A DNA stretch of 38,635 nucleotides. It comes from Acidobacteriota bacterium. GTDB lineage: Bacteria; Acidobacteriota; Vicinamibacteria; Vicinamibacterales; CAVVIG01. The translations under genes and the position numbers were made by a program. Positions 1 to 38,003 of the stretch are shown piece by piece. Location: NCBI GenBank assembly GCA_028876655.1, contig JAGWRA010000119.1, forward strand, positions 1-38,635, in the 5' to 3' direction. The first letter of the stretch is position 1, and every line of letters begins with the position of its first letter. The notes beneath the pieces were generated by a model. It did no database searches. It saw nothing but the letters and a program-made list of their open reading frames with translations, and was not told the DNA's origin.

Positions 1-1574
1 ATTTGAACCGTCCACTGAGGGTGGCCGTTGTTGACGTCAGTGCCATTCTGGTGGGTGAGGTCCTTCGCCGAGACTGGGAGATGGCAACCCGGCGTGCGCT
101 TGGCGCAACTGAGTGGCAGCTGGCTCGTCAGCTGATGGCTGAGGGCCTGCTCGTGGCGCTGCTCTCCGCAGGCTGTGGAATTCTGCTTGCGACATCCGCC
201 ATGCCGATTATCGCCGCGATGTTGCCGCGCGTGATGTCGTTCGAGGCGCTCAGTGCAGTGGCTGTCAACTGGAGGGCGGGCGGCCTCGCGGCGATTGTGG
301 CGGGCGTTGCAGGACTGCTATTGGCGGTAGCTCCGTTGATGCAGGCGCGGTTGGGTAGCTTGCTGCCGGCGCTGGCGCGTGCCGGGCATACGCGGGGGAG
401 CGTTGGTCGAGTGCGCGCATGTCTGCTGGCAGGCGAACTGGGCATCTCTGTTGTGGTGCTTGTCACGGCTGGCTTGCTGGCCAGGAGCTTCATCCACGTC
501 TTGCGTACCGAGACGGGATATGACACGTCTCGAGTGGCGAAGCTCTCATTGTATCTACAGCCCGGACACGTTCCAGATTCGAAGGACCGACTGCGTGTAC
601 TTGACGCGGCTAGGCGACAAGCCCTACTTGCACCGGGAGTGGTACAGGCGAGCATCTCCGACGGTCTGCCTCCACAGACGGGTGTTGGATTCGGCAGGCT
701 CGAGGTGCCTTCGCTTGGACTTGTGTCTGGCCCTGTCTACATCAGCGAAACGTCGATCGACGAACACTTCTTTTCAGCCATTGGCGTTCCAGTTCTGAGA
801 GGACGGAACTTTGGGCCCAATGACTTCACGGGCTCATCGCAACCTGTGATTGTGAGCCGATCCCTTGCGAACAGCTTGTCGGCGGCGGGTGAGGTTCTTG
901 GACTTCATTTTCACTGGGCCGCGCATGCGCCGTGGCTCTCGGTCATTGGCGTGGTCCCCGACGTCAAGAACGGGCCGGCAGTCAGTGGCTTCGGTACGCT
1001 GGCTGTGTATCTACCCTTGAAGATGGGGACCCGGCAGTCAGCGATATTGGTCGTGCGGACGCACAGGCGGGCCGAGAACGCGATCGCGGCTGTAGAGCGA
1101 AGCCTGGCGGAGAATAGTCCGGAGGTGGCGGTGGGGACTGCAGAAGCGGCGTCACAGGTCGTCGCGGACGTTCAAGTTCAGCCACGCTTCGCCACCCAAG
1201 TGATGGCGGGTCTTGCGGTGATGGTGCTGCTGCTGACCTTCTCAGGGTTGTACGGTGTATTTGTGACTTTGGCCCTGCAGAGAAGACGCGAGATTGGGAT
1301 CAAAATGGCTCTTGGAGCGACAGAAGCCGCCATCGTGAAGATGATGCTCCGCGAGGCACTTGGCTTGCTGGTGGCGGGAATCGCCGCAGGGCTGGGTATC
1401 GCAATGGTAGCGAGTCAGTTGCTGCGGAGTCTGCTGTACGGAGTGTCTCCACTCGATCCACCGACCTTTGCCGTTGTGTCTCTGGCGCTGGGAATCGCTG
1501 CCGTCGGAGCGATTACGATGGGTGTGCGCAGTGCCATCAAGCTGCGCCCGATGGACGCGCTGCGAACCGATTGA
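1..1574 (+). CDS. ADOP-family ABC transporter permease (MacB/FtsX type), 5'-truncated by window edge
   Basis: Inner-membrane permease of the FtsX/MacB superfamily. About 523 residues are visible and the frame is open to the left edge, so the N-terminus lies outside. In order: the end of a first FtsX domain containing EMATRRALGA, membrane segments, an extracytoplasmic MacB_PCD-like region (about residues 165-390), then a second FtsX domain with REIGIKMALGA and three hydrophobic segments, ending PMDALRTD. Two FtsX halves with the paired 'RRALGA/KMALGA' motifs are typical of acidobacterial duplicated orphan permeases (ADOP), whose exact substrates are mostly unknown. No ATPase gene is visible here. 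Base use differs from its neighbours: three rows I counted gave 52-57% GC against roughly 70-80% elsewhere, suggesting a different history or recent acquisition. The family call is firm; the transported substrate is unknown. Confidence 0.88.
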   Translation, partial: LNRPLRVAVVDVSAILVGEVLRRDWEMATRRALGATEWQLARQLMAEGLLVALLSAGCGILLATSAMPIIAAMLPRVMSFEALSAVAVNWRAGGLAAIVAGVAGLLLAVAPLMQARLGSLLPALARAGHTRGSVGRVRACLLAGELGISVVVLVTAGLLARSFIHVLRTETGYDTSRVAKLSLYLQPGHVPDSKDRLRVLDAARRQALLAPGVVQASISDGLPPQTGVGFGRLEVPSLGLVSGPVYISETSIDEHFFSAIGVPVLRGRNFGPNDFTGSSQPVIVSRSLANSLSAAGEVLGLHFHWAAHAPWLSVIGVVPDVKNGPAVSGFGTLAVYLPLKMGTRQSAILVVRTHRRAENAIAAVERSLAENSPEVAVGTAEAASQVVADVQVQPRFATQVMAGLAVMVLLLTFSGLYGVFVTLALQRRREIGIKMALGATEAAIVKMMLREALGLLVAGIAAGLGIAMVASQLLRSLLYGVSPLDPPTFAVVSLALGIAAVGAITMGVRSAIKLRPMDALRTD

Positions 1575-1719
1575 CTGCTGTGGTGGGCTCCGGCTGATCT
1601 CACAGCGGTGTCCGACGCAGGAGCGGTTTCGTTGCGAGGCGGCTCACCGGATCAGCCAGCGCGGCAATGGTCAAAGGCGTTTCACCGCCTCATGGGCTCC
1701 CTTCCTCTTCAGGCGCTAG

Positions 1720-2373
1720 CTAGCGGACCGCCAGGAAGTCCTCGATGAGCGCCAGCAGCTTCGGGCCCTGCGGCGTCGCGAAGATGTTCTGTGCGTGTGC
1801 GTTCCCATCGAGCAGTTCGATCTGTTTCGGTTCGGGCGCGCGCGCGAACTGCGCCTGCACCGCCGGCGCCAGCTGCTCGTCCCGGCTCGCGACGTACATG
1901 ATCCGGCGCGCGTGCATCGCCTCCGGATGGGGGACCGGCACCGGTGAGAGCAGGAAGAGATGGTCGATCTCGCCCGGCCGGGCCTCCGCGGCGGCGCGGG
2001 CCGAGGCGCCGCCGCCCATGCTCGCCCCGACGACATCGACCCGGGTGGCGCCGTGGGCGTGCAGGTACCGGACGGCGGCGAGCACGTCCTGGTCGTACGC
2101 CCGCGGCTCGCGGCCCGGCGTGGACGCCCCGTACCCGCGGAAATCGATCGCCAGCACCCGGTGTCCACCGGCGACGAGCGCCTGCGCCACCGTGGCCCAG
2201 CTCTCCTTGTTGAACACGGCACCGTGCGCGAGCACCACGCCGTCGGCGCCGCTGCCGTACAGGTCGGCGACGATGTGGGCGCCGTCAGCGGTCTCGAACG
2301 AGACGTGCTGCGGCGGCGCGGGCGCCGCCAGCATCAGGCTCAGAAGGGTCGTCAGCAGCATGGGGATGCGCAT
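1720..2373 (-). CDS. exported alpha/beta hydrolase
   Basis: A 217-residue alpha/beta-hydrolase fold protein with a probable signal peptide (residues 1-20, hydrophobic core LLTTLLSLMLAAPAP). The nucleophile elbow reads G-A-S118-M-G, an oxyanion-type LAHGAVFNKESW follows the third strand (about residues 48-59), and the likely catalytic partners are D165 in SRDEQ and H193 in GNAHAQ. The length is short but normal for serine esterase or dienelactone-hydrolase-like members; the substrate cannot be told. It is the last of three minus-strand genes after the E1 and beta-propeller genes, 84 bp behind the latter. An AGAGG lies directly against the chosen ATG, so the ATG at codon 5 (12 nt downstream of it) is an alternative start. 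Confidence 0.85.
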   Translation of the reverse strand: MRIPMLLTTLLSLMLAAPAPPQHVSFETADGAHIVADLYGSGADGVVLAHGAVFNKESWATVAQALVAGGHRVLAIDFRGYGASTPGREPRAYDQDVLAAVRYLHAHGATRVDVVGASMGGGASARAAAEARPGEIDHLFLLSPVPVPHPEAMHARRIMYVASRDEQLAPAVQAQFARAPEPKQIELLDGNAHAQNIFATPQGPKLLALIEDFLAVR

Positions 2374-2457
2374 CCTCTGCGGTCCGGGGCGTCGGACCGG
2401 GCCGGAAGCGTAGCATGCTTCCCCCGGCGGTGCGAGGGCTGGAGCGCGGCCGCGCCG

Positions 2458-3498
2458 TCACGGCGCGAAGATCCAGCAGCCCGGCGTCACCAGCAGGCGC
2501 CCCTGCGGGTCGAAGAAGAGGCTGGTCGGCGCCAGCGGTCCCGCCGGCGTCTGCAGCTGCACGACACGGATCTTGTCGCCCGCCGGATCGTAGACGTAGA
2601 CGTACGGCACCACCAGCGCGACCCACAGGTTGCCCGCCCGGTCGATTGCCGCCGTCCGCACGATCGGATGGGCGACCGGGAACTCATCGCTGCCGGGCGC
2701 CCGCTTCGGCCACTCGGTCGGCAGCCGCGCCACGAGACTGTCGATCTCCGGCCCCTCGATGTGCCGCTCGAACAGCAGGTGCCCGTCGTGGTCGTACCGG
2801 CGGAAGAGCGGGACGCCGGCCTGGAAGACGAAGTCGTAGCCCCCCTGCGGATTGAAGAGCGGCAGGCCCGTGTTCAGCACCACCTGCAGATCGGGATCCG
2901 TCTGGCCAGTCTCGCGCGGGCGGCCGAACGACCGCTCCGGATCGCCATACGGCGAGTACTGGGTGATGAGCGATCCCGTCGCCGGCTCGCTGATCAGGAT
3001 CGAGTGGCCGTCGTACTGCAGCGACCCGACGCCGCCGAGCACCAGTCCGTCCAGCACCACCTGGAAGCGGCTCGCGCCGGACGGAAAGAAGCCGCCAATC
3101 GGCGTGCCCTGGTCGGCGAACACCTGGATCCGCTCCCGCTCGGGGGCGTCGGCGACCACGAACGTCCCGTCCGGCTCGCTGGCGAACGCCGTCGGCTGCA
3201 GCAGCCGCCCGGGCTCGGTGCCGATCGAGACGATGCGCGTGGCCTTCGTCATGGCGGGATCGATGCGGTACACGGAGTGACCGCGCTCGTCGAACACGTA
3301 GAACCACCCGTCGGCGGTGCGCTGGAAGGCGAGCGGCGTGCGGAACTGTCCGGACAGGAACGGCGGCAGGCTGGCGGTGGCGTGCAGCGTGTCGCGCTGG
3401 ATCGCCGCGCGCGGCGTGAGGCTCCAGAGGGCGCAGAGCAGGGAGGTGGCGAGCAGGAGGGGAACGGGGCGTCGAACCGCGGGGCAGCGATCGGCCAC
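2458..3498 (-). CDS. exported NHL/6-bladed beta-propeller protein
   Basis: A protein of about 346 residues starting at a GTG. I chose this start because it gives a basic N-region followed by a hydrophobic stretch (LLLATSLLCALWSL), a plausible signal peptide. No clear ribosome site supports it, so the start is uncertain. The rest is built of repeated beta-propeller-like blades with patterns such as 'G-x-F/L-x-V-A-D-x-x-x-x-R-I-x-V-F' (about residues 80-115, 'TFVVADAPERERIQVF') and 'AIDRAGNLWVALVV' near the C-terminus, as in NHL and 6-bladed propeller proteins. It contains no enzymatic motif I recognise. It lies 65 bp downstream of the E1 gene on the same strand, with a GC-rich inverted repeat between them, so it may share that transcript. 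Confidence 0.75.
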   Translation of the reverse strand: MADRCPAVRRPVPLLLATSLLCALWSLTPRAAIQRDTLHATASLPPFLSGQFRTPLAFQRTADGWFYVFDERGHSVYRIDPAMTKATRIVSIGTEPGRLLQPTAFASEPDGTFVVADAPERERIQVFADQGTPIGGFFPSGASRFQVVLDGLVLGGVGSLQYDGHSILISEPATGSLITQYSPYGDPERSFGRPRETGQTDPDLQVVLNTGLPLFNPQGGYDFVFQAGVPLFRRYDHDGHLLFERHIEGPEIDSLVARLPTEWPKRAPGSDEFPVAHPIVRTAAIDRAGNLWVALVVPYVYVYDPAGDKIRVVQLQTPAGPLAPTSLFFDPQGRLLVTPGCWIFAP

Positions 3499-5920: not shown

Positions 5921-6283
5921 ATGGCCACGCAGACTGTCCGCCTCCATCGCTGGGACGAGATCGCGCTCGAGAAGGTCACCGAAATGATTTCCCGCAAGGT
6001 CGTCACCGGCGAGCGGGAGATGGTCGCGCAGATCTACCTGAAGCGCGGCGTGCTGGTGCCGGCGCACAAGCACGAGAGCGAGCAGATGACCTACGTCCTC
6101 CAGGGCGCGCTGAAGTTCCTGATCAACGGCGAGGAGATCACCGTCCGCGAAGGGGAGATCCTCCACATCCCGTCCTGGGTCGAGCACCAGGCCGAGGCGC
6201 TCGAGGACACCTTCGAGCTGGACTTCTTCAGTCCCATCCGCCAGGACTGGCTCGACGGGACCGACGACTACTTCCATCGCTGA
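5921..6283 (+). CDS. small cupin-domain protein
   Basis: A 120-residue single-domain cupin (beta-barrel). Cupin motif 1 is visible as G-VLVPA-H-K-H-ESEQ-MTYVLQG, giving the usual metal-binding HxH and a downstream E/Q, and motif 2 as GEILHIPSWVEHQAE with P, G-equivalent turn and H. Such proteins bind a divalent metal and act as sugar-modifying enzymes, dioxygenases or small-molecule sensors; which applies here cannot be told. I start at the ATG giving MATQTVRLH because the 15 residues upstream look non-coding, although no good ribosome site supports either choice. It is the first gene after the divergent promoter and may be co-transcribed with the SDR gene, 168 bp downstream. Confidence 0.85.
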   Translation: MATQTVRLHRWDEIALEKVTEMISRKVVTGEREMVAQIYLKRGVLVPAHKHESEQMTYVLQGALKFLINGEEITVREGEILHIPSWVEHQAEALEDTFELDFFSPIRQDWLDGTDDYFHR

Positions 6284-6394
6284 GCGCCTGCGGCCATGCC
6301 GAGCCGAGGACACGCGAATCCGAGGCGAGGCATCGGCGTCAGCTCGCGCCGGGGCGCAGGATGCCACTGAAAGCGGCAACGGCGCTGCCGGCAG

Positions 6395-6442
6395 GATCCG
6401 GAGCGTCAGCGACGGCAACGCGTGGGGGTGGGGCCCCACGCG
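6395..6442. repeat. dispersed 48-bp palindromic repeat, copy A
   Basis: The copy begins GATCCGGAGCG and ends in a perfect hairpin: CGCGTGGGG (6419-6427), 6-nt loop, CCCCACGCG (6434-6442). It matches copy B at 37939-37986 at 43 of 48 positions by eye. The two differences inside the stem compensate each other, so base pairing is kept. The hairpin ends 9 nt before the SDR start codon, where it could limit ribosome access. It resembles REP/BIME-type repeats in size and form. Confidence 0.7.
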
Positions 6443-6451
6443 GACCAAATA

Positions 6452-7243
6452 ATGCAGACTGATCTCGACGGCAAGGTCGCGCTGGTCTGTGCCGCGAGCA
6501 AGGGGCTCGGGCGCGCCGCCGCCCGGTCGCTCGCCGGTGAGGGCTGCCGTGTGGCCGTCTGCGCCCGCCACGCCGACGAGCTGGCGCGCGCGGCCGCCGC
6601 GATCGCGGCCGAGACCGGCGCCGAGGTGCTGCCGGTCGCCGCCGACGTCTCCGAGCGCGCCGACGTGGCGCGGCTGGTCGAGACGACGGTCCGGCACTTC
6701 GGCGGCCTCGACATCCTCGTCACCAACGCGGGCGGCCCGAAGTCGGGCGTCTTCGACACGCTCGGCGAGGACGACTGGCGCGCCGCGGTGAACCTCACGT
6801 TCCTCAGCGTCGTCCTCCTCTGTATGGAGGCGGTGCCCCACCTGCGCCGGCGCGGCGGCGGCCGCATCATCAACATCACGTCCGTGTCGGTGAAGCAGCC
6901 GATCGACGGGCTGATGCTGTCCAACGCCCTGCGGGCGGCGGTCGCCGGTTTCTCGAAGACGCTGGCCACCGAGCTGGGCCCCGACGGCATCCTGGTCAAC
7001 TGCGTCGCGCCGGGCTACACGCGCACCGACCGGGTCACCGAGATCGCCGAGGCGACGGCCGCCCGCGAGGGGATCGCGGCGGCCGAGGTCGAGGCGCGGC
7101 TGGTGCGGCACGTGCCGCTCGGCCGGCTCGGCGAGCCGCGCGAGCTGGGCGATCTGGTCGCCTTCCTCGCCTCCGCCCGCGGCAGCTACATCACGGGAAC
7201 GACGATTCCGGTAGATGGCGGGTTCGTGAAGGGGTTGCTGTAG
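6452..7243 (+). CDS. atypical SDR-family oxidoreductase (FabG-like, catalytic tetrad altered)
   Basis: A 263-residue Rossmann-fold short-chain dehydrogenase/reductase. The N-terminal nucleotide loop reads AASKGLGRAAA (about residues 14-24), the NAG motif is TNAGGPKSG, and the C-terminus has the usual GPDGILVNCVAPGYTRT and ITGTTIPVDGGFVKG. The active site is unusual: after S144 the place of the canonical YxxxK reads S157-N-A-L-R161, so both Tyr and Lys are missing. A known SDR subgroup resembling beta-ketoacyl-ACP reductase (with APE0912 of Aeropyrum) also lacks a perfect tetrad, and this protein fits that description. Reaction and substrate are unknown. The start at ATG 6452 puts the gene just after the palindromic repeat; a GTG at 6422 lies inside that repeat and is less likely. 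LemA follows after 22 bp. Confidence 0.85.
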   Translation: MQTDLDGKVALVCAASKGLGRAAARSLAGEGCRVAVCARHADELARAAAAIAAETGAEVLPVAADVSERADVARLVETTVRHFGGLDILVTNAGGPKSGVFDTLGEDDWRAAVNLTFLSVVLLCMEAVPHLRRRGGGRIINITSVSVKQPIDGLMLSNALRAAVAGFSKTLATELGPDGILVNCVAPGYTRTDRVTEIAEATAAREGIAAAEVEARLVRHVPLGRLGEPRELGDLVAFLASARGSYITGTTIPVDGGFVKGLL

Positions 7244-37828: not shown

Positions 37829-37916
37829 CCCGCCTTCGCGCCGCTGATACCCGGGCGCTTCGGCGAGGCAGGCCCGCCTTCGCGCCGCTGATACCCGGGC
37901 GCTTCGGCGGGGCGGG
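37829..37916. repeat. 44-bp direct tandem repeat (two units plus decayed third)
   Basis: Units at 37829-37872 and 37873-37916 differ at only 2 of 44 positions and begin CCCGCCTTCGCGCCGCTGAT. A third copy starts at 37917 with CCCGCC and GCCGCTG, then decays into the palindromic repeat. No spacers, so it is not a CRISPR. Confidence 0.85.
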
Positions 37917-37938
37917 CCCGCCCGGTCGCCGCTGGCCC

Positions 37939-37986
37939 GATCCGGAGCGTGAGCGACGGCAGCGCATGGGGGCGGGGCCCCATGCG
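37939..37986. repeat. dispersed 48-bp palindromic repeat, copy B
   Basis: Begins GATCCGGAGCG and ends in a perfect hairpin: CGCATGGGG (37963-37971), 6-nt loop, CCCCATGCG (37978-37986). Against copy A the stem has A-T where copy A has G-C, so pairing is preserved. It follows directly on the 44-bp tandem repeat. Confidence 0.7.
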
Positions 37987-38003
37987 CGCGGACGTGTTCC
38001 GCA

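Follow-up and report, generated by a model that had tools for sequence, protein, structure and literature searches.

A modular hairpin repeat family of the Vicinamibacterales, probably mobile, with one class placed in sense at gene starts

Results and Discussion

Analysis of a 38,635-nucleotide stretch of DNA (the window, taken at its full length) from a soil acidobacterium identified a structured repeat family, of which one class, class A, is most likely a non-autonomous mobile element that may double as a portable translation leader. The reading as a whole, in which a structured non-autonomous family would be mobilised in trans and would supply a leader that replaces the start region of the gene behind it, is one we regard as fairly probable. 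The host belongs to the Vicinamibacterales (Acidobacteriota), an order known here almost solely from uncultured (MAG) genomes, and its genome assembly comprises 4.19 Mb in 281 contigs at 97% completeness.

Two copies in the window and the anatomy of the element

The initial annotation described two 48-nt copies at 6395-6442 (copy A) and 37939-37986 (copy B), and both its count and its reading of the differences were borne out: 43 of the 48 positions match, and two of the five that differ form a paired G-C to A-T swap in the hairpin (CGCGTGGGG/CCCCACGCG vs CGCATGGGG/CCCCATGCG). A search of the window with the two-copy consensus, allowing up to 3 mismatches, returned just these two sites, with 0.00 expected from 100 shuffles. 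The unit is longer than the interval 6395-6442, which takes in its core and hairpin alone; the covariance model spans 6359-6454 at copy A. The features are as follows.

6284..6452 or 6283..6451, + strand: insert of 169 nt (one-base ambiguity), missing from the orthologous site of the same-genus genome G001 by empty-site comparison
6284..6358, + strand: B-type 5' module (GCGCCTGCGGCCATGCCGAGCC...), truncated and without its own hairpin, directly 5' of copy A, as seen in the sequence
6359..6454, + strand: full A-type element, copy A (model R1, 104.8 bits)
6395..6415, + strand: near-invariant core GATCCGGAGCGTCAGCGACGG, with a predicted small hairpin CCG-GA-GC-GTCA-GC-GA-CGG
6419..6442, + strand: 3' hairpin, a 9-bp stem with compensatory changes and the loop GTGGGG
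6443..6451, + strand: A-rich unpaired tail GACCAAATA (family consensus RAYTGAANA)
6452..7243, + strand: SDR-family gene, its ATG directly against the tail
37939..37986, + strand: copy B, core and hairpin only (58.4 bits over 37903-37998)

The 9-base gap between the copy A hairpin and the SDR ATG at 6452 had also been given correctly, and class-wide position counts show that this place at a start codon is typical of class A. At copy B the standard tail and 5' module are unrecognisable, and there is no sense gene downstream. The full class A unit measures about 96 nt and consists of a 36-nt 5' module, the core GATCCGGAGCGTVAGCGACGG, the 9-bp hairpin and the tail RAYTGAANA, followed by ATG; family conservation ends at ATG or ATGCY. 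A second repeat family (CCGCCTTCGCGCC...GGCGCTTCGGCGAG) lies in tandem at window positions 37829-37916. Fusions of this second repeat to class A copies occur at loci such as L003, L005, L015, L023, L047, L055 and L062, with the junction repeatedly at almost the same point within the hairpin top.

Family size and distribution

With up to 2 mismatches allowed, 84 sites in the genome matched the 21-nt core (0 for the reversed control), and the exact hairpin top GGGGGTGGGGCCCC occurred in 131 copies, again with 0 for the reversed pattern. The initial annotation had proposed a genome-wide covariance-model search as a check, and this recovered many intergenic copies with stem covariation: the model, built on 47 copies, gave 139 genome matches at E <= 0.01. 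Of 51 full-length copies the underlying alignment (A1) holds 47, the other four being left out for want of a recognisable 5' module; ten copies with the hairpin and without a tail match had been excluded beforehand.

The core at 2 mismatches was found in 17 of 60 genomes, the host genome counted, and the covariance model matched 35 of 149 genomes of the order Vicinamibacterales. Of 396 genomes sampled from the phylum, four matched the core at 1 mismatch, all of them within Vicinamibacterales. A search of 84,980 species genomes returned 56 matching stretches, 55 of them titled Acidobacteria or Vicinamibacterales, while the remaining one is proteobacterial, lies inside a gene call and lacks the hairpin. 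The viral contigs, phages and plasmids searched contained no family match. As far as seen, the family is confined to the order Vicinamibacterales, and a literature search over a limited set of sources and terms returned nothing on such a hairpin family in Acidobacteria.

Covariation and the REP/BIME alternative

Covariation in the stem of the 3' hairpin (helix 3) is real. It is backed by RNAalifold and by a pair count in which 97% of cells are paired across the 47 copies, with G-C 24/A-U 17 at one pair and U-A 34/C-G 11 at another. In 124 distinct copies (the exact 14-mer in the loci retrieved, from 131 in the genome), the five lower-stem pairs had 593 of 620 cells paired, against a shuffle mean of 378 and maximum of 431. 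Across the whole structure the 47 copies contained 42 double-changed cells, against 15.9 in shuffles; in this test the cell-based measures alone exceed shuffles, as the number of pair types and the number of double-changed pairs were reached by 299 and 63 of 500 shuffles respectively. The core hairpin CCG-GA-GC-loop-GC-GA-CGG is predicted, and as the core is near-invariant it has no covariation support; with a single exception among 133 copies, its loop reads GTGA, GTCA or GTAA. Helix 1, the stem of the 5' module, is weak (66% of cells paired), and an all-pairs scan gave no covariation signal for long-range pairing between 5' module and core. The class A core is interrupted at L185 (301-438) and L066 (near 1500) by a MITE-like insert that has inverted ends, reading CCTTCGAC/GTCGAAGG in L066, and a flanking GCGAC duplication.

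High-copy, dispersed, intergenic palindromes with compensatory stem changes are what would be expected of REP/BIME elements moved by a RAYT, an IS200/IS605-like tyrosine transposase, and Y1_Tnp genes were found, one or two each, in 9 of 12 relatives carrying the model. Against this, Y1_Tnp had 0 matches in the host genome, which is 97% complete (the control matches in E. coli), and was absent from the other three of the 12 relatives, which have copies (G032, G047 and G099). PMC2817692 describes RAYT genes as being flanked by REPs in every case; none of the 11 Y1 loci in the nine relatives had a credible copy nearby, the best (E 0.059) being without hairpin. The consensus, read by eye, has no GTAG tag and the unit is about 96 nt as against 20-40 nt; CGTC does occur in the core when the reverse strand is read, but a few bases separate it from the stem and it was counted as no tag. 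Absence of an own Y1, of flanked Y1 genes in relatives and of a GTAG tag largely rules out REP/RAYT identity, and we give this explanation very little credence. The initial annotation, which had suggested a structured mobile family such as REP/BIME, was therefore upheld for the family, with its many intergenic covarying copies, and not for REP/BIME membership.

Modules and arrays

The family is modular, with one common 3' hairpin and A-rich tail and exchangeable 5' modules. Weaker-scoring matches carried the common hairpin and tail behind different 5' modules, namely module B (GGCCATGCCGAGCC...GAGGCATCGGCGTCAG), module C (GCGAGGCGGAGCCGAGCCGC) and a further one, here called D (GCGGATCGCTGGTGG...). 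By script, the 124 distinct exact-hairpin copies comprise 58 of class A, 33 of class B, 8 of class C and 25 unclassified. Some copies form head-to-tail arrays that repeat every 75-83 nt; as a rule the last copy alone has the full right arm and tail.

The common 3' end with its exchangeable 5' modules provides a starting point in the search for the mobilising enzyme. In one-ended transposition a fixed 3' end is combined with variable 5' parts, and the common 3' hairpin and short tail of the family resemble this pattern. Conservation, moreover, ends at ATG or ATGCY. Both observations speak for another single-strand or rolling-circle transposase (IS91/Helitron-like or a HUH enzyme) for which the hairpin, lying some 12 nt short of the 3' end, would be the terminus, with no role for the host gene. 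A Y2_Tnp search gave no match, its control likewise matching nowhere. Taken alone, a purely selfish reading gives no reason to expect class A to be biased 41:3 towards sense, as described below. We consider this explanation unlikely, if the strongest of the three alternatives weighed here.

Two candidate mobilisers were rejected. L217 (contig C251 of the host genome) encodes, at its positions 1369-3156, a lone retron-like reverse transcriptase, so judged by eye, with a C-terminal extension, and is the only RVT_1 match of the genome; there is no element copy in its 3.7-kb locus. The gene at L246 lies beside a hairpin that has none of the known 5' modules, and its product resembles an ordinary transporter.

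Filled and empty sites

Comparison of the copy A insert with the empty site of G001, a genome of the same genus whose SDR gene is 82% identical, shows mobility. In G001 the TGA of a cupin-like upstream gene overlaps the SDR ATG (TGATG), and the window has 169 extra bases between stop and SDR start with a duplication of at most 1 nt. Other filled/empty pairs were found at trmD (L036) and at L257 (module D), where both inserts end at the start codon, and L004 is a similar case. Several other gaps in the list were uninformative, either not being element insertions or having diverged flanks. Some copies are older, because G001 has a related element at the place orthologous to L183.

These sites bear on a second alternative, a conserved cis-regulatory RNA (a riboswitch-like leader or attenuator) that is inherited vertically and kept by selection in front of its genes. 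Sense orientation, the place at starts, the near-invariant core with its GTVA-type loop and the covarying hairpin would all fit such an RNA. It is at odds with the empty site and with the core count, 84 in the host genome and 0 in G001, as well as with the head-to-tail arrays, the unrelated downstream genes (translations judged by eye) and the fact that classes B and C are not tied to starts. An Rfam search of the window returned only tRNA at the gathering threshold, six loci searched at E <= 1 gave 0 matches, and we judge the explanation improbable.

Orientation and position relative to genes

Class A copies of the host genome are mostly found between same-strand genes, where they are in sense in 41 cases and opposite in 3 (p = 1.6e-9). 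In 65 copies from named genomes, mostly of one other Vicinamibacterales family, the ratio was 46:2 (p = 8e-12); an ORF of the gene caller crosses 9 of the 65, and the full set of 65 includes the proteobacterial coding match without hairpin. Class B copies in same-strand pairs were in sense in 13 cases vs 8 opposite (A vs B, p = 0.003). A leader function cannot be general to the family, since class B and C copies are not clearly oriented and are found in convergent positions too. The class A bias could reflect selection against antisense copies rather than insertion.

With gene starts taken from a codon-usage script, 39 of 58 class A copies have a sense start no more than 60 nt away, and in 19 the script chose the tail ATG itself, 11-16 nt past the hairpin top. 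Of 14 class B copies without a sense gene downstream, 12 carry the tail ATG, which thus belongs to the element or to a target preference and is not a selected start. The host start at trmD is a GTG, yet the tail in front of it still has AATAAT, which favours the element as the probable source of at least the AT.

Genes downstream include housekeeping types (trmD, ispG, nuoH, rplR and argG; translations judged by eye). In two genera of one family (g60 and g62, loci L206 and L209) class A precedes apparently orthologous efflux-pump genes, one of them behind a triple in tandem, which is either a conserved position or repeated insertion. At L205 (about 1001-1100, genome G014) a class A copy directly adjoins an apparent tRNA-Ser gene, not a protein start.

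The start region and a proposed mechanism

Starts at the element tail had an unpaired probability of 0.68 (n=19) vs 0.42 for ordinary starts (n=166; p = 1.3e-9). SD-like matches of 4 or more were present at 6 of 19 tail-ATG starts, at 89 of 206 ordinary starts, and at 11 of 14 starts located 22-40 nt beyond the hairpin. There was no sign of an intrinsic terminator, as TTTT followed within 12 nt in 0 of 124 copies and a terminator scan also returned none, and no sigma-70-like site was found at copy A. Control of the SDR gene by the element is plausible from its placement. We infer that the hairpin may insulate and that the A-rich tail may offer a landing site, and that genes would thus tolerate insertion between stop and start.

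Our preferred reading, that of a trans-mobilised family providing leaders, can be set out as follows. A putative enzyme acting in trans would recognise the common 3' end of the unit, and insertion would occur next to an ATG. The hairpin would then insulate and the A-rich tail would keep the start codon open, such that the element would stand in for the displaced ribosome-binding region and the gene would stay translated; the same would hold inside operons with overlapping stop and start. No mobiliser of the hairpin family was found, which counts against this best explanation.

A more specific form of the idea is that of a mobile translation-start cassette: an RNA-structured element inserting in sense at start codons, including operon stop-start overlaps, and bringing a start region that is insulated and has no clear Shine-Dalgarno sequence, with different 5' modules joined to one mobilised 3' end. 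We advance this form tentatively and think it rather less probable than not. If true, start regions of housekeeping genes in operons would have been repeatedly taken over, and the family would naturally give rise to new translation start regions and to the uncoupling of operons.

Comparison with known systems

Bacterial MITEs such as Correia, ERIC and RUP are small, non-autonomous and dispersed, can fold as RNA and affect the neighbouring gene. The present family is alike in being small, non-autonomous and RNA-foldable, as copy A illustrates with 169 nt, no gene and an empty site in G001. It differs in having no terminal inverted repeats (its ends differ), a target duplication of at most 1 nt at the empty site, and a common 3' end with exchangeable 5' modules. 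Mobile promoters, or mobile 5' regions, are mobile pieces lying in sense upstream of genes, a placement that the family shares; it departs from them in that copy A has no sigma-70-like site, many copies lie between same-strand genes and the characteristic feature is at the translation start. The putative cassette may also be likened to SINEs by its common 3' end. The hairpin element works like a small non-autonomous mobile repeat, without assignment to a named family.

According to PMC3733652 and PMC2817692, REPs measure 20-40 nt and carry GTAG or CGTC tags, and the GTAG REPs flank linked RAYT genes. Like the present family, GTAG and CGTC REPs are described there as high-copy intergenic hairpins with compensatory stem changes, and CGTC REPs are likewise without a dedicated transposase. 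REPs, which are the best known of the small repeats in bacteria, are described as occurring mainly downstream of genes or in convergent gaps, whereas class A lies upstream of starts; and in contrast to the REP/RAYT systems so described, the Vicinamibacterales family is a modular unit of about 96 nt with no GTAG tag and no flanked Y1.
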